DNA from: Gammaproteobacteria bacterium
GTDB lineage: Bacteria; Pseudomonadota; Gammaproteobacteria; DSM-26407
DNA length: 14,879 nucleotides
Direction: 5' to 3'
Assembly: GCA_028694565.1 (NCBI GenBank)
Contig: JAQVKR010000016.1
Coordinates: 1 to 14,879 of the forward strand
This document shows, in pieces, positions 2,162-13,971 of this stretch. Every line of letters starts with the position of its first letter. Within the stretch, counting starts at the first letter, position 1. The notes beneath the pieces were generated by a model that searched no databases, was not told the origin of the DNA, and saw only the letters and a list, made by a program, of their open reading frames with translations. Both the position numbers and the translations under genes were made by a program.

Positions 2162-2172
2162 GTTGGGACAAC

Positions 2173-2389
2173 TAGACAGGATTTACAGGATTTGGAAAAG
2201 CGCGTCAGGCACCACAAACCGGCTACATTTCGGACCAACCACTGACGAACCTGGTGCAGGACACGGCACTGATTTGGCAAGGACACGACCACGAAGAGGC
2301 GCCCCTCGTGGCCGTGCGTCAGATCCACCCCGCTTCCCCCCGCCGTGGATAAACTCCTTAAATCCTGCACATCCTGTCAATCCTGTCTA
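2173..2389. repeat. Intergenic repeat element A1 (CAGGATNNN tandem repeats in inverted orientation)
   Basis: This 217-bp element fills the gap between the convergent aroE and gor stops. The left end has two CAGGAT copies 9 nt apart (TAGACAGGATTTACAGGATT from 2173). The right end, read on the minus strand, has three copies 9 nt apart (CAGGATTGA, CAGGATGTG, CAGGATT) beginning with TAGACAGG, so the outer 11 bases are perfect inverted repeats. The interior has a core TTCGGACCA near 2229-2237 shared with element A2, and a 16-bp hairpin at 2283-2317. No reading frame in it looks like a protein. It resembles a small palindrome-ended, MITE-like or RNA-forming unit, of no family I can name with certainty. 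Confidence 0.8.
2283..2317 (-). other. Hairpin inside element A1, compatible with minus-strand RNA
   Basis: In minus-strand RNA 2302-2317 pairs with 2283-2298 around a 3-nt loop: 12 Watson-Crick pairs and 4 G.U pairs without a bulge. Read on the plus strand the same four positions are A-C mismatches. The asymmetry suggests that, if the structure matters, it acts in RNA read through from gor. No U-tract follows. Confidence 0.5.
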
Positions 2390-2399
2390 TTTCCAGATC

Positions 2400-3752
2400 T
2401 CAGCGCATGGTGACCAGTTCCTCGGCGCTGGTGGGGTGCAGGGCCACGGTGTTGTCCAGATCGGCCTTGGTGGCGCCCATCTTCAGCGCCACGGCGAAGC
2501 CCTGCAGCATCTCGTCGGCGCCCAGCCCGATGAGGTGCACGCCCACCACCTTCTCCTGCGCCCCCACGGTCACCAGCTTCATGGCGGTGGGAGAGGGGTG
2601 GGAGGTGAGCGCGGCGTACATGGGGGTGAAGCTGGTCTGGTAGCACTTCACGCTCTGGGGGCCGAACCGCTCCAGCGCCTGGGCCTCGGTGAGGCCGACG
2701 GTGCCGACGGGCGGGTGGCTGAAGACCACCGTGGGCACGTTCTCGTAGTCGAGCCGCAGCTCCGGCCGGCCGCCGAACAGGCGCGTGGCCAGGCGGCGGG
2801 CGGCGGCGATGGCCACCGGCGTCAGCGCGATCCGGCCGGTCACGTCGCCCACCGCGTAGATGCCCGGAACGTTGGTGTTCTCGAACGGGTCGGTGGGGAT
2901 GAAGCCGCCGGCGTCGGTCTCCACCCCGGCCGCCTCCAGGTTCAGGTCCGCGGTGGCGGGATCGCGGCCGATGGCCCAGATCAGGCTGTCGAAGCCGGCC
3001 AGCTCGGTGCCGTGGTCGCAGTGCAGCCGGAGACCGTCGTCACTGCGCTCCACCGCCGTGAGCGTGGTGTTGGTCACCACCTGGATGCCCTCGTCCTGCA
3101 TCGCCTCCAGCAGGGTCTCCCGCAGCAGGGCGTCGAAGCCGTCCAGGACATGCTCGCGGCGGATGACCAGGGTGACCTCGGAGCCGAGCGCCTGGAGCAC
3201 CCCGGCCAGCTCCACGGCGATGTAGCCGGCGCCCACCACCGCCACCTTGCGCGGCTGCGCCTCCAGGGCGAAGAAGCCGTCGGAGGTGATGCCGAGCTCG
3301 GCGCCGGGAATCGACGGCAGGCGCGGCACCGCGCCCGGGGCGATGACGATGTGATCGGCGCTGTAGCGCTCGCCCTCCACCTCGATGGTGCGGCTGTCGA
3401 GGAAGCGGGCGCGACCCCGGATCTCGTCGATGCCGGAGTCCTTCAGATAGCCGTGGTACCAGGCGTTGATGTTGCCGATGTAGCGCTCGCGGGCCGCCAC
3501 CAGGCGGCCCCAGTCGAGCCCGCCGGCGCGCACGTCGAAGCCGTAGTCTGGGGCATCGCGCAGGGTATGGGCGATGGAGCCGGCGAACCACATCACCTTT
3601 TTCGGCACGCAGCCCACGTTGACGCAGGTGCCGCCGATGCGGCCGGACTCCACCACCGCGCAGCGGGCGCCGTGGGTCACCGCCCGCTCGGCCACGGAGA
3701 GCCCGCCGCTGCCGCCGCCGATGGCAATCAGATCGTAGTGTTTGCTGGACAC
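2400..3752 (-). CDS. gor: Glutathione-disulfide reductase (glutathione amide reductase possible)
   Basis: FAD flavoenzyme that reduces glutathione disulfide in the cytosol. It has 450 residues, the same length as E. coli Gor. The FAD motif GGGSGG is at 12-17, the redox-active disulfide Cys43/Cys48 in [13 protein letters not shown], the pyridine-nucleotide motif GAGYIAVE at 174-181, a second FAD motif (AVGDVTG), and the catalytic C-terminal His439/Glu444 in HPTSAEE. The start is GTG at 3752, supported by GAGGAGG 5 nt upstream. Oddity: at the NADPH 2'-phosphate site Arg198 is kept, but the position of E. coli Arg204 is Asp204 (VLDGFD instead of an LRSFD-type segment), so coenzyme preference may differ. 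Known from the family: a purple sulfur bacterium has a glutathione amide reductase that prefers NADH. Single-gene unit, divergent from prlC, with its own sigma70-like promoter. Confidence 0.93.
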
Positions 3753-3757
3753 GTCAG

Positions 3758-3764
3758 CCTCCTC
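3758..3764 (-). promoter_or_regulatory. Shine-Dalgarno deciding the GTG start of gor
   Basis: On the minus strand GAGGAGG is followed by 5 nt and then GTG. This near-perfect anti-16S match fixes the rare start codon, and the protein then begins directly before the conserved FAD-binding strand. Confidence 0.8.
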
Positions 3765-3778
3765 TCGGACAGAGGCCG

Positions 3779-3807
3779 AATCTAGCGGAACGGGGCGGGG
3801 ATGGCAA
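3779..3807 (-). promoter_or_regulatory. Probable sigma70 promoter of gor
   Basis: Minus strand: TTGCCA (3802-3807), 17-nt spacer, TAGATT (3779-3784). The -35 matches consensus at 5 of 6 and the -10 at 4 of 6. The predicted transcript start is near 3772, leaving a leader of about 20 nt that includes the Shine-Dalgarno. Confidence 0.55.
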
Positions 3808-3868
3808 AGGGACGGCCGCCCGGCGCCGGCCGGGGAGACCGGGAAGCTGGCCGCTGGCGGCCGGAAAC

Positions 3869-3877
3869 TGGTATCTT
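3869..3877 (+). promoter_or_regulatory. Possible extended -10 promoter of prlC
   Basis: TG-G-TATCTT matches an extended -10 element (TGN before the hexamer) with no recognisable -35. Predicted start near 3884, about 24 nt before the prlC ATG. A short GGCCGC/GCGGCC dyad lies just upstream at about 3850-3863. Confidence 0.35.
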
Positions 3878-3907
3878 TCCCCCTCTCACGACAACGCGCT
3901 GAATCCC

Positions 3908-5950
3908 ATGGACAACCCCCTGCTGGACATGACCGGGCTGCCGCCCTTCTCGGCGTTGCGCCCGGAGCACGTGGAGCCCGCCATCGACGCGGTGCTGGAG
4001 GAGAACCGCGGCCGGGTGGCGGCGCTGCTGGCGGCCACGGATCACTACACCTGGGACAGCCTGGTGGCCCCGCTGGAGGCCCTGGAGGATCGGCTCAACC
4101 GCACCTGGTCGCCGGTGAGCCACATGAACTCGGTGGTGAACACCCCCGAGCTGCGCGCCGCCTACAACGCCTGCCTGCCCAGGCTTTCCGACTATGCCAC
4201 CGAGATGGGGCAGAACGAGGCGCTCTACGCCGCCTTCCGGTCCATCGCCGAGCGCGCCGACTTCGGCGCCCTGGACCCGGTCCGCCAGCGCATCGTCGGC
4301 AATGCGCTGCGCGACTTCCGCCTCGCCGGCGTCGCCCTCGACCCGGAGCGCCGGGAGCGCTTCCGGGCCATCCAGCAGCGCCTCAGCACCCTCACCTCGA
4401 AGTTCGAGGAGAACCTGCTCGACGCCACCCACGCCTGGTTCCGGCAGGTCACCGACACGGCCGAGCTGGCGGGCCTCCCGGAAAGCGCGCTGGCGGCGGC
4501 GCGCCAGGCCGCCGCCAGCCGGGAGCTCGACGGCTGGGTCTTCACCCTCGAGTACCCGAGCTATTTCGCGGTGATGAGCTACGCCGAACACCGCCCCCTG
4601 CGCGAGGCGCTCTACACCGCCTACGTCACCCGGGCCTCGGACCAGGGCCCCCATGCCGGGCGCTGGGACAACGGACCGGTGATGGAGGAGATCCTGGCCC
4701 TGCGCCACGAGCTGGCCCGGCTGCTCGGCTTCCGCAACTACGCCGAGCGCTCGCTCGCCACCAAGATGGCGCCGGACACCGGGGCGGTGCTCGCCTTCCT
4801 CGAGGACCTGGCCGGGCGCTCGCTCGCCATGGCCCGGGAGGAGCTGGAGACGCTGCACCGCTACGCCCGCGAGCACCACGGCCTGGCGCGGCCCGAGAGC
4901 TGGGACATCACCTACTGCTCCGAGCAGCTGCGCCGCCACAGGCACCAGCTCTCCCAGGAGGATCTGCGCCCCTACTTCCCCGAGCCGCGGGTGCTGGAGG
5001 GGCTGTTCGCCGTGGTGGAGCGGCTCTACGGCGTGCGCGCCGAACTCCAGCCCGGGGTGGACACCTGGCACCCGGACGTGCGCTTCTACCGGCTGGTGGA
5101 CGAGGCGGGCGAGGTGCGCGGCCGGTTCTACCTCGATCTCTACGCCCGCGCCCACAAGCGCGGCGGGGCATGGATGGACGAGTGCATCGTCCGCCGTGTC
5201 GACGGCCAGGGCCGGGTGCAGGTTCCGGTGGCCTACCTCACCTGCAACTTCAACGCGCCGGTGGAGGGCCGCCCGGCGCTGTTCACCCACAACGAGGTGC
5301 TGACCCTGTTCCACGAGTTCGGCCACGGCCTGCACCACATGCTCACCCGCATCGATCACGCCAGCGTGGCGGGGATCAACGGCGTGGCCTGGGACGCGGT
5401 GGAGCTGCCCAGCCAGTTCCTGGAGAACTGGTGCTGGGAGCCGGAGGCGCTGGCGCTCGTCTCCGGTCATCACGAGACCGGCGAGCCCCTGCCGCAGGAG
5501 CTCATCGGGCGCCTGCGCGGCGCGCGCAATTTCCAGGCGGGAATGCAGATGGTGCGCCAGCTCGAGTTCGGCCTGTTCGACTTCCGCCTGCACCTGGAGT
5601 ACGACCCGGCGCGCGGCGCCCGGGTGCAGGAGATCCTCGACGAGGTGCGGGCCCAGGTGGCGGTGGTGGCCCCGCCGGCCTTCAACCGCTTCCAGCACAG
5701 CTTCTCCCACATCTTCGCCGGCGGCTACGCGGCCGGCTACTACAGCTACAAGTGGGCGGAAGTGCTGGCCTCCGACGCCTTCTCGCTGTTCGAGGAGCAG
5801 GGCATCTTCGACGCCGAGACCGGACGCCGCTTCCTGCGCACCATTCTGGAGCGGGGCGGCGCCCAGGAGCCCATGGAGCTGTTCGTCGAGTTCCGCGGCC
5901 GGGAGCCCGAGATCGACGCCCTGCTGCGCCACAGCGGCATCGCCGCCTGA
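3908..5950 (+). CDS. prlC: Oligopeptidase A (M3 zinc metallopeptidase)
   Basis: Cytosolic thimet-type zinc peptidase that cleaves short peptides, including cleaved signal peptides in E. coli. The product has 680 residues, identical in length to E. coli OpdA/PrlC. The active-site motif HEFGH is at 469-473 (zinc ligands His469 and His473, catalytic Glu470), in the family context [12 protein letters not shown]. The third zinc ligand is Glu499 in [10 protein letters not shown]. Typical family segments are also present: the N-terminal [15 protein letters not shown] and the C-terminal [23 protein letters not shown] 3908 gives the standard N-terminus; no strong Shine-Dalgarno is visible. Its stop codon overlaps the start of the SH3/anchor gene, suggesting co-translation. 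Divergent from gor across 155 bases. Confidence 0.96.
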
Positions 5951-6597
5951 TGATCATGAGCAACCGACGCCCCCTGTTCCTCGCCGCCATGGCGCTGCTG
6001 CTCCTGCTGCCGCCGATGCCGGCCCCCCGGGCCGCCACCGAGACCCGCTACGTGAGCGATCAGCTGCTGCTGGAGGTCCGCGCCGAGCCCGACCCGGCCG
6101 CGGCCGCCGAGGCCACGCTGCCCACGGGCACCCCGGTGGAGGTGCTGGAGCAGCGGGACGGCATGGCCAGGATCCACGCCGCGGACGGCACCGAGGGATG
6201 GGTCGACAGCGCCTTTCTGATGGGGGAGCAGCCGGCGCGGCTGCGGCTGCTGACCACCGAGGATCGCCTGCAGAAGGCGCGGGAGGAGATCGACCGGCTG
6301 CGGGAGGAGAACGAGCGCCTGCAGGGGCGCGATGGGCCGTCACCGGCGGCGGGCGACGGTGACGCCCGGCTGCAGGTGGAGAACGCGGCCCTCAGGGCGC
6401 GCATCGAGCGGGCGACGGCCGTGCTGCGCGGCGAGGAGGCGCCGGCGGAAGCCGCCCCCGGGGAAGCCGGGCCGGCCGCCAGCGCGCCCCTGGCCTGGCT
6501 GGGCCTGGCGCTCGGGGCCCTGCTGGCGGGCTTCCTGCTGGGCACCCGCTGGATGGACCGCCGCCAGCGCCGGCGCCTGGGCGGCTTCCGGCTCTGA
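5950..6597 (+). CDS. YgiM-type SH3-domain protein with C-terminal membrane anchor
   Basis: A 215-residue envelope protein. An N-terminal signal/hydrophobic segment spans about 9-26, followed by a bacterial SH3-like domain at about 32-96 (YVSDQLLLEVR, later GWVDSAFLM). A charged coiled coil follows at about 104-160 (DRLQKAREEIDRLREENERLQ in part), then a Pro/Ala/Glu linker, one transmembrane helix at about 180-197, and a basic tail (DRRQRRRLGGFRL). This order fits the SH3-and-anchor family that includes E. coli YgiM; its biochemical role is not established. It starts at 5950 in a TGATG overlap with the prlC stop; ATG 5956, two codons later, is an alternative. The layout predicts the SH3 domain on the outer face of the inner membrane with a short basic cytoplasmic tail (inference). 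Confidence 0.88.
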   Translation: MIMSNRRPLFLAAMALLLLLPPMPAPRAATETRYVSDQLLLEVRAEPDPAAAAEATLPTGTPVEVLEQRDGMARIHAADGTEGWVDSAFLMGEQPARLRLLTTEDRLQKAREEIDRLREENERLQGRDGPSPAAGDGDARLQVENAALRARIERATAVLRGEEAPAEAAPGEAGPAASAPLAWLGLALGALLAGFLLGTRWMDRRQRRRLGGFRL

Positions 6598-6628
6598 GCC
6601 GCCGCGGCAGTTCACCTTCCAGTTCCTA

Positions 6629-6762
6629 AACGCAAAGGCGCAAAGGACAGGGAAGGTGGTTGCAATCCGGCCCGTCAAGCCTGGTGATAAGCCCCGGCGG
6701 GCCCGAATCCAACCCGGACTGCACACGCCATATTGTTCCTGGCGTCTTGGCGTCTTCGCGTT
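6629..6762. repeat. Intergenic repeat element B (8-nt GCNAAGNC repeats in inverted orientation)
   Basis: This 134-bp element lies between the convergent SH3 gene and hemE. The left end is AACGCAAAGGCGCAAAGG (6629-6646), two units 8 nt apart. The right end, read on the minus strand from 6762, is AACGCGAAGACGCCAAGACG followed by CCAGGAA, three units 8 nt apart. The interior is an imperfect palindrome: GGTTG near 6657-6661 answers CAACC near 6709-6713, with partial pairing continuing inward to GGCCCG/CGGGCC. No reading frame in it looks real. Its ends differ in sequence from A1 and A2, but the two-plus-three inverted layout is the same. Confidence 0.75.
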
Positions 6763-6821
6763 GAACCGATTCCATGCCCCAGCCAGTACGGGCGGCCGGT
6801 AGCCGGAGGCCGGCGCTGCGG

Positions 6822-7886
6822 TCAGGAATGGTAGGGTGCGCTGAGCTCGTGCACCGCCCGCACCAGGGCCGCGGCATGGTCTGGGTTCACGTCCGGGTGG
6901 ATGCCGTGGCCCAGGTTGAACACGTGGCCCGTCCCCTTGCCGTAGGAGGCCAGGACGGTCGCTACCTCGTCCCGGATCCGCTCCGGGCCCGCGTAGAGGA
7001 CGCAGGGATCGAGATTCCCCTGCAGGGCCACCCGGTCGCCGACCCGGGCGCGGGCATCGGCGAGATCGGTGGTCCAGTCCAGCCCCACCCCGTCGCAGCC
7101 GGTCGCGGCGATCCCCTCCAGCCACTGCCCGCCGCCCTTGGTGAACAGGATGACCGGCACCCGCCGGCCATCGGCCTCCCGGGTGACGCCCTCCACGATG
7201 CGCGCCATGTAGTCCAGGGAGAATTCGCGGTAGGCGCGGGGCGTCAGCACGCCGCCCCAGGTGTCGAACACCATCAGGGCCTGGGCGCCGGCGGCCACCT
7301 GGGCGTTGAGGTAGGCGATGACGCTCCGGGTCAGCACCTCCAGCACCCGGTGCAGCAGGGCCGGGCGGTCGAACAGCATCCCCTTCACCCGGGCGAAGTT
7401 CTTGCTGGTGCCGCCCTCGACCACGTAGGTGGCCAGGGTCCAGGGGCTGCCGCTGAAGCCGATGAGGGGCACCCGGCCGTCCAGCTCGCGCCGGATCAGC
7501 CGCACCGCATCCATCACGTAGCGCAGCTCGCCCTCCGGGTCGGGCACGTGCAGGCGATCGACGTCACGCTCCTTGCGCACCGGATTCTCGAACACCGGCC
7601 CCTCGCCCTCCTCGAAGGAGAGCCCCAGGCCCATGGCGTCGGGCACGGTGAGGATGTCGGAGAAGAGGATGGCCGCGTCCAGCGGGAAGCGCTCCAGCGG
7701 CTGCAGGGTCACCTCGCAGGCCAGCTCGGGCGTCTGGCACAGGGTCATGAAATCCCCCGCCCGGGCCCGGGTCGCGCGGTACTCGGGCAGGTAGCGCCCG
7801 GCCTGGCGCATCATCCACACCGGGGTCACATCCACGGGCTGGCGCAGCAGCGCGCGGAGAAAACGGTCGTTCTTCAGCTCAGTCAT
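6822..7886 (-). CDS. hemE: Uroporphyrinogen decarboxylase HemE
   Basis: Cytosolic cofactor-free decarboxylation of uroporphyrinogen III to coproporphyrinogen III in haem (and, if present, chlorophyll) synthesis. It has 354 residues, the standard length. The signature [16 protein letters not shown] is at 22-37, with Arg27 and Arg31 lining the substrate pocket. The essential aspartate Asp77 is in ILFSDIL, then come [18 protein letters not shown] and the C-terminal [10 protein letters not shown] with invariant His327. The ATG at 7886 fits the family N-terminus; the Shine-Dalgarno is weak. It lies 153 bases downstream of gltD on the same strand, and repeat element A2 fills most of that gap, so either hemE is read through from gltBD or a promoter lies in or near A2. 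No clear -35/-10 pair was found there. A GC-rich inverted stretch (about 6793-6813) follows the stop. Confidence 0.97.
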
Positions 7887-7910
7887 GGGGACCCCGGTTG
7901 AAAAGCCTCA

Positions 7911-8031
7911 ATAGACAGGATTAACAGGATTTCCGGCGCCGATTCGGCCGGCGCGTGCAACGTTACTTCGGACCACCGGCGACGGGCAAGCCTTCGACCC
8001 AATCCTGCACATCCTGCAAATCCTGTCTATT
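7911..8031. repeat. Intergenic repeat element A2 (CAGGATNNN tandem repeats in inverted orientation)
   Basis: This 121-bp relative of element A1 lies between gltD and hemE. The left end carries two CAGGAT units 9 nt apart (TAGACAGGATTAACAGGATT from 7912). The right end, read on the minus strand, carries three (CAGGATTTG, CAGGATGTG, CAGGATT), preceded by AATAGA. The three-copy ends of A1 and A2 match at all but two of about 30 positions. The shared core TTCGGACCA is at 7967-7975, preceded by TAC and followed by GACG in both. A small hairpin lies at 7936-7954. The element ends 9 bases from the gltD stop and 24 bases before the hemE start codon. Confidence 0.8.
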
Positions 8032-8039
8032 CGTTTCTT

Positions 8040-13971
<5,932 letters not shown>

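Follow-up and report, generated by a model that had tools for sequence, protein, structure and literature searches.

Intergenic Elements with Inverted Tandem-Array Ends in a Gammaproteobacterium and Their Link to GxxExxY Nuclease Genes

Three Array-Bounded Elements between Genes

The stretch of DNA analyzed here (the window) consists of 14,879 nt of the forward strand of contig JAQVKR010000016.1 in assembly GCA_028694565.1; it is contig 495 of the 511 that make up the 3.02-Mb, 88% complete genome of its gammaproteobacterial host (G000). It holds three intergenic elements of 122–221 bp, A1, B, and A2, each bounded by tandem arrays of a short unit that are inverted with respect to each other. 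A1 (2171..2391) lies between genes that we take to be aroE (+, ends at 2161) and gor (−, stop at 2400), B (6628..6765) between a presumed SH3-like gene (+, ends at 6597) and a gene recognized as hemE (−, stop at 6822), and A2 (7910..8031) between hemE, which starts at 7886, and the presumed gltD (−, stop at 8040). None of the three contains a gene for GxxExxY, a small predicted nuclease, yet elements with the same units that enclose such a gene exist elsewhere, and the relation between the two kinds of element is the subject of this work.

The left array of A1 is made of two CAGGAT units (2177..2191, +) and the right array of three (2362..2385, −), both with a 9-nt spacing; A2 likewise has two CAGGAT units on the left (7916..7930, +) and three on the right (8002..8025, −). 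The unit of A1 and A2 is CAGGATNNN, and the ends of their family are AATRGACAGGAT...ATCCTGTCYATT (AATRGA...TCYATT). Exact copies of CAGGATNNNCAGGAT occur in the window at 2177 (+), 2362 (−), 2371 (−), 7916 (+), 8002 (−), and 8011 (−), and a search for the A pattern with up to two mismatches gave nine matches for 0.85 expected, a count reached in 0 of 200 shuffles. The arms pair over 25 nt in A1 (88%) and over 21 nt in A2 (90%). In B, whose unit is CGCNAAGN and whose ends lie near TCAACGC...GCGTTGA, the left array consists of two exact 8-nt units CGCAAAGG (6631..6646, +) and the right array of three related units, CGCGAAGA, CGCCAAGA, and CGCCAGGA (6739..6762, −). The inverted arrays, which a preliminary description made from the sequence had pointed out, were thus recovered at all three places; their ends are sharp, and the consensus ends of the families are a few bases wider than first given. 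A CRISPR reading of the arrays was set aside because there are no unique spacers between longer repeats.

Copies and Anatomy of the A and B Families

That description also anticipated further copies, and these are numerous. The double unit CAGGATNNNCAGGAT has 138 hits (77 + 61) in the host genome and the B counterpart CGCNAAGNCGCNAAG has 67 (36 + 31), for 0 and 1 hits with the respective reversed patterns; a pattern with a fixed gap of 20–50 nt found nothing there because the arms are further apart. Among 185 genomes of the class, A-pattern hits are abundant in three, namely, the host (138), its sister species of the same genus (G001, 232), and a member of another family (G083, 139); each of the other 182 has at most ten. 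Our sample of 34 A elements comprises A1, A2, and 32 elements from the first 100 of the 138 listed host hits. A script run on the fetched stretches around these first 100 A hits and around most B hits listed 38 two-ended elements (32 A and 6 B) of 125–404 bp, with one outer unit clipped in a few rows (L082, L088, and L091).

The number of units differs from copy to copy. With a loose unit match, the left and right counts of the 34 A elements are (2,3) in nine, (3,3) in eight, (3,2) in seven, and other combinations in ten, which gives no fixed polarity; A2 itself has three left units at the same place in the sister species, against two in the host. The arrangement of two left and three right units, proposed at first as a shared design, was not confirmed as a fixed one. 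The cores between the arrays are mostly unrelated from copy to copy. Shared stretches include a third unit, CGCAGATT, found in a number of A elements; inner units of this type on both sides were detected by a strict pattern in 3 of 32 A elements, below our by-eye estimate. Homologous core pairs were found at L091, L085, and, in opposite orientation, L082. The two copies at L091 share 205 of 219 positions, against 6/20 and 5/20 in the outer flanks, which defines the borders of the element.

Several other arrangements were seen. At 4 of the 12 places fetched from G083 (L336, L337, L339, and L340), near-identical short A elements lie in different surroundings, and this genome (L329–L340) gave neither a GxxExxY nor a four-helix-bundle match. 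A elements are nested between arms of another unit, D (CACGAAG), at L086, L090, L099, and L343, so that elements of one unit lie inside those of another. Long 8-nt repeat runs of the TGCGTGAA type occur beside or inside array elements at L347 in G001 and at L061 in G000, the core of the latter differing between the two species. At L346 in G001, an FMN riboswitch (RF00050, 107 bits, positions 511–665) directly follows an A left array.

Position Relative to Genes

Gene positions were taken from our own codon-scored caller, trained on six genes of the window, in place of a longest-ORF count of gene contexts, which misplaced genes in GC-rich DNA and of which only the unit counts were retained. Overlap with called genes does not exceed 15 nt for any of the 34 A and 7 B elements. 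At least one neighboring stop codon is present for 31 of the 34 A and all 7 B elements, and 25 of the 39 stop-facing sides of A elements are 4–16 nt from the stop; start codons are 10–236 nt away, and 3 of the 34 A elements have a start on both sides. The closeness to stop codons noted for the window is therefore real and general, with distances of about 8 nt to gor, 8 nt to gltD, and 56 nt to hemE in place of the 10, 9, and 59 nt first reported. Targeted insertion is not established by these positions, because selection against hits in genes and in upstream signals could produce the same distribution.

Such positions might also be expected if the elements were mainly RNA, that is, hairpins or terminators at the 3′ ends of genes that spread and were kept for that reason. 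The RNAs of the window elements do fold better than shuffled sequences (z = −4.2 for A1, −2.2 for B, and −4.1 for A2). This explanation is nonetheless improbable in our estimation: the elements between two starts do not fit it, loops are long and cores bear no relation to one another, and the spacers, on whose pairing such a structure would depend, are the fastest-changing part of the element (see below). Moreover, no Rfam family scored above its gathering threshold in the window, and the wider association with nuclease genes would be left unexplained.

Comparison with the Sister Species

The sister species matches the window at 96% over the two longest pieces. A1 is found there at the same place with the same core, and L070, like A2, differs by one unit between the two species. 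B is absent from its place, which does not amount to a clean empty site since the surroundings differ too. The corresponding gap (L239, window 6599–6828) is occupied by a short inverted array, (GATGAAG)n...(CTTCATC)n, with a 7-nt period, as seen around four-helix-bundle genes. Both flanks were located in G001 for 22 further elements, the pairing of the pieces being read off by us. Among these, L074 is missing from its site except for a short residue similar to one of the right ends, and all that remains of L095 is the left array. No counterpart was found for 16 of the 34 A elements among the loci compared.

In the 13 A elements with cores that could be aligned, differences between the two species amount to 3/308 positions in units, 20/153 in spacers, 165/1815 in cores, and 77/2052 in flanks. 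Five of the 18 elements compared (L074, the second of L076, L078, the second of L085, and L095) were omitted from these figures, having poorly alignable cores and more unit differences; adding them brings the totals, as we summed them, to 13/391 in units, 29/191 in spacers, and 226/2125 in cores. All counts refer to positions in register, as a count on units found by their letters is biased. Elements could be located only through their outermost unit; the second unit shows 0 differences in 152 positions. The ends are thus kept in a relative, and the retention of units while spacers and cores drift implies either selection or conversion between copies.

Conversion could account for much of this if the nuclease cuts the arrays and repair then transfers ends and cores from one element to another with the same units, the units staying uniform and the cores swapping with little true transposition. 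Identical ends with mostly unrelated cores, cores that differ more than flanks, the partial replacement of the L061 core in G001, and the gains of whole units at A2 and L070 are in agreement with such a process. By itself, however, conversion does not place arrays at new sites, G083 has arrays and no nuclease gene, and the unit gains may also be due to slippage; we regard this explanation as unlikely.

Arrays on Both Sides of Most GxxExxY Genes Tested

GxxExxY and four-helix-bundle genes were the candidates at the outset, and both were searched for. GxxExxY is a protein of about 125 amino acids belonging to the PD-(D/E)XK nucleases (PF13366). The catalytic D, E, and K are retained in 96–97% of 107 proteins, the predicted structure model has a mean pLDDT of 95.6, and the protein is predicted to be a DNA-cutting enzyme; the one GxxExxY protein queried had no sequence relatives in the PDB. 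The family is very common (a single search scored 8000 candidates, all 8000 of them matches), and TIGR04256 matches were obtained in 10 of 56 relatives, with one in the host and five, two of them remnants, in G001. Among viral contigs, a GxxExxY relative turned up in just two, L149 and L150.

We looked for arrays around these genes with a unit-chain detector to which no unit was supplied in advance. Arrays on both sides of the gene were detected at 80 of 110 testable loci, for 17 of 645 control positions obtained by shifting within these loci. These comprise 51 of 77 testable loci from the genome_contigs set, in which 80 loci, the best-scoring among at least 582 relatives, were fetched from a wide range of bacterial phyla and, in one case (L215), from an archaeon, and 29 of 33 testable loci from the host's class, out of 34 that include a near copy (L124) and two remnants (L134 and L135). 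One locus, L133, passed through a chance chain, its true arrays being visible on reading the flanks. An earlier fixed-period detector (49/77 and 11/15 GxxExxY loci, 11/13 four-helix-bundle loci, and 4/316 shifted controls) was replaced because it missed arrays with mixed 8- and 9-nt spacing. Pairing the left and right flanks of different loci, which gave 76 positives in 376, proved a poor control because many elements share units.

Of 359 intervals between units in GxxExxY loci, 323 measure 8, 9, or 10 nt. The 8- and 9-nt periods of the window, which are present as first described, therefore do not represent two isolated designs: the wider class mixes 8, 9, and 10 nt, even inside a single array. 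Direct links to the window come from the units themselves. In G001, A arrays with the A ends AATRGA/TCYATT surround the GxxExxY gene of L131; in other genera, B-type units surround those of L132 and L299; CGCAGATT units flank the gene of L128, and D arrays that of the host, L122. The suggestion that a single mechanism, such as a mobilized palindromic element or a protein-binding array, lies behind different units is borne out to this extent, both unit types of the window flanking members of one nuclease family; the interpretation given in the preliminary description is, as a whole, partly supported, and two of the outcomes that would have spoken against it, a lack of further copies and a lack of conserved ends in a relative, did not occur. 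Because the region of L131 has a single 49-nt match in G000, an empty site of the A-type nuclease element cannot be read there. Finally, L134 and L135 retain parts of a GxxExxY gene between intact arrays. At L135 (about 1340–1780), the CGCCAAG element with its gene remnant is itself nested in arms of the GATT/GAATT type, which match each other almost perfectly.

Unit Type Follows the Nuclease Clade

We next compared units with a tree of 75 proteins, from which L124 (a near copy of L122), the remnants L134 and L135, the short L167 and L172, and loci with a detector score below 7 were omitted. The ten loci with GATT/GAAT/AAAT-type units all fall on one side of a single branch (support 96/90). 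This distribution requires one change of unit class, for a mean of 9.6 after shuffling (0/500 shuffles), with a labeling that was not blind, since some protein tails had already been seen and the class of six loci (L133, L178, L206, L210, L223, and L285) was set by hand. All ten GATT-type rows come from the host's class because the patterns used to scan for relatives favor proteins of the other, AG, type; 16 AG-type rows come from that class as well. The two groups also differ in the proteins: a C-terminal G-hydrophobic-x-R motif is present in 65 of 65 AG-type proteins and absent from 9 of 10 GATT-type proteins. Within the AG type, unit profile is correlated with tree distance (Mantel r = 0.334, 0/5000, n = 62). 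The two arms of an element also match each other: of 71 loci, 54 have the same first two spacings in both arms (12 expected, maximum of 22 in 2000 shuffles), and arm identity is 81% of positions within elements against 36% between elements.

These results bear on the possibility that a host protein, nucleoid-associated or regulatory, binds the arrays and has a role near gene ends, and that GxxExxY genes carry the arrays because they exploit them or are regulated through them. The drift of spacers and cores around conserved units at fixed sites is as expected under selection, G083 has arrays without a GxxExxY gene, and paired tandem sites in Geobacter metallireducens have been read in this way, as global-regulator sites, in the part of the report available (PMC2700814). 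On the other hand, a host protein would hardly explain why, in many phyla, the unit tracks the clade to which the enclosed protein belongs, why arms match element by element, or why high copy numbers are confined to 3 of 185 genomes of the class. We consider this host-protein reading unlikely.

Four-Helix-Bundle Genes between 7-nt Arrays

Inverted tandem arrays also flank genes of another family, the four-helix bundle (TIGR02436), whose protein is unrelated to GxxExxY. They were found at 28 of 33 loci (L137–L145, L147–L148, and L300–L319, around the gene at 1501–1815); of 250 intervals, 229 measure 7 nt, and the unit letters vary freely between loci. The agreement between left and right spacings (17 of 21, for 16.3 expected) is uninformative here, since nearly every interval is 7. 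The host genome has one such gene (L139). No four-helix-bundle open reading frame is present within the window elements, the units of which are 8 and 9 nt, not 7.

Proposed Origin as Gene-Less Derivatives of a Nuclease Element

Gene-carrying members of the GxxExxY class have one gene between two inverted arrays of two to five, sometimes more, units of 8–10 nt. A1, A2, and B have arrays of such units at both ends and share their unit, the A elements also their ends, with gene carriers, L131 for the A elements and L132 and L299 for B; we classify them as gene-less derivatives and not as full members. The explanation that we hold to be somewhat probable is that they derive from GxxExxY elements and that their arrays are the ends recognized by the nuclease. 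The arrays would serve the element both as its ends and as the sites that its nuclease reads, with a separate unit for each protein clade, and gene-less copies would arise by internal deletion with the arrays retained, so that a nuclease supplied in trans could still act on them. Recognition of the arrays, their cutting, and the transposition of the elements are what we infer. Movement would follow a route without target duplication, and the absence of such duplications together with the changes in cores is compatible with single-strand transfer as well as with cut-and-repair copying.

A number of observations weigh against this explanation. The one GxxExxY gene of the host genome, at 88% completeness, is of the D type, and none of the A or B type was found there; in G083, no relative of L131 was detected at E ≤ 1e−5 despite the 139 A-pattern hits, nor any four-helix-bundle match. 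Arrays went undetected at 30 of the 110 GxxExxY loci, and no gene remnants were seen in the cores of gene-less copies beyond L134 and L135. Evidence of mobility is scant: 20 of the 22 element sites compared are filled in both species, a sign of little recent movement, and none of the 34 A elements has a target duplication of 3–9 bp at its consensus ends; with the ends set 3 bp inward, a 3-bp duplication appears in 1 of 34, for 0.83 expected. As to other replicons, GxxExxY occurs on the two viral contigs, in 8 of 72,556 plasmid records, and in no phage record, low figures for a mobile gene.

A further point on this side is that each of the three A-rich genomes carries genes for Y1 transposases (3 matches in G000, 7 in G001, and 3 in G083). 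The elements might accordingly be repeats similar to REPs or REPINs, moved by a Y1 (TnpA-REP) transposase. The REPIN/RAYT system resembles what we describe in that gene-less intergenic palindromes occur in many copies and a dedicated protein is encoded elsewhere, and an intergenic palindromic layout without target duplication is common ground. The presence of Y1 genes says little, however, because Escherichia coli and other control genomes carry them too, and none of the six Y1 loci examined out of the 13 matches has A arrays, or any detected inverted array, next to it. The ends differ as well: REPs have hairpin ends tagged with GTAG or GGAG, while the A ends (AATRGACAGGAT) and B ends (TCAACGC) are unlike these and belong to tandem arrays, and the protein found between arrays is a PD-(D/E)XK nuclease and not a Y1 transposase. 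We consider a Y1-based origin very improbable. Miniature inverted-repeat transposable elements (MITEs), which derive from DDE-type insertion sequences, are also gene-less and have inverted ends and many copies; the A elements differ from them by the 0/34 target duplications and by the PD-(D/E)XK nuclease of their gene-carrying relatives.

Tentatively, the GxxExxY elements may be placed in a widespread class of minimal mobile elements, the ends of which would be inverted tandem arrays and the sole gene of which would encode the protein that reads them. Such a class would include a GxxExxY branch (8–10 nt) and a four-helix-bundle branch related to the intervening sequences of 23S rRNA genes (7 nt), and gene-less derivatives of both would account for many short intergenic tandem arrays so far unexplained, including the CAGGATT, CGCAAAG, CACAGAG, CACGAAG, and heptamer families.

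Relation to Known Arrays

Arrays of this kind, taken alone, were known before. The Geobacter sites resemble those described here in that arrays of three to four tandem units, each about 8 nt long, face each other from opposite strands with a variable distance between them and in many intergenic copies, and their class 2 unit, TCTCCGTS, corresponds to the CACGGAG unit of this work read on the other strand; the portion of the report available describes them as IHF/HU-type regulatory sites and does not mention GxxExxY (PMC2700814). Inverted pairs of GGGAATC heptamers in Xanthomonas, among heptamer repeats of Xanthomonas and Nostoc (PMC4692102), and the TAACTGA arrays of Beggiatoaceae, for which identification of a repeat-binding protein was called for (PMC4679880), are similarly short, intergenic, and tandem, with inverted pairs being frequent in Xanthomonas; they differ by their 7-nt period, and no partner protein is named in the accessible parts of these papers. 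The 23S intervening sequences with an S23p open reading frame have been termed selfish elements and, according to the part of that study at hand, have inverted ends and one small open reading frame of the four-helix-bundle family found here between 7-nt arrays; they are located in 23S rRNA genes and are cut from the RNA, whereas the window elements are intergenic and of the GxxExxY type (PMC4990558). The link to a protein, the match between unit and clade, and the reading of arrays as element ends were not found in print: our searches, outside which most subscription journals and bioRxiv preprints fall, returned no publication linking GxxExxY or the four-helix bundle to arrays and no description of a GxxExxY function, the name GxxExxY being mentioned incidentally in two papers, and those on unit letters returned papers that appear unrelated by title, or none.

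If the explanation proposed here is true, GxxExxY would gain a role, and the 23S intervening sequences would become part of a larger group. For the short intergenic arrays of Geobacter, Xanthomonas, Nostoc, and Beggiatoaceae, to which the available parts of the reports assign no partner protein (PMC2700814, PMC4692102, PMC4679880), two period classes tied to two small protein families would offer candidates that can be expressed for a direct test. The elements of the window hint at a kind of tiny mobile element that has not been described so far.

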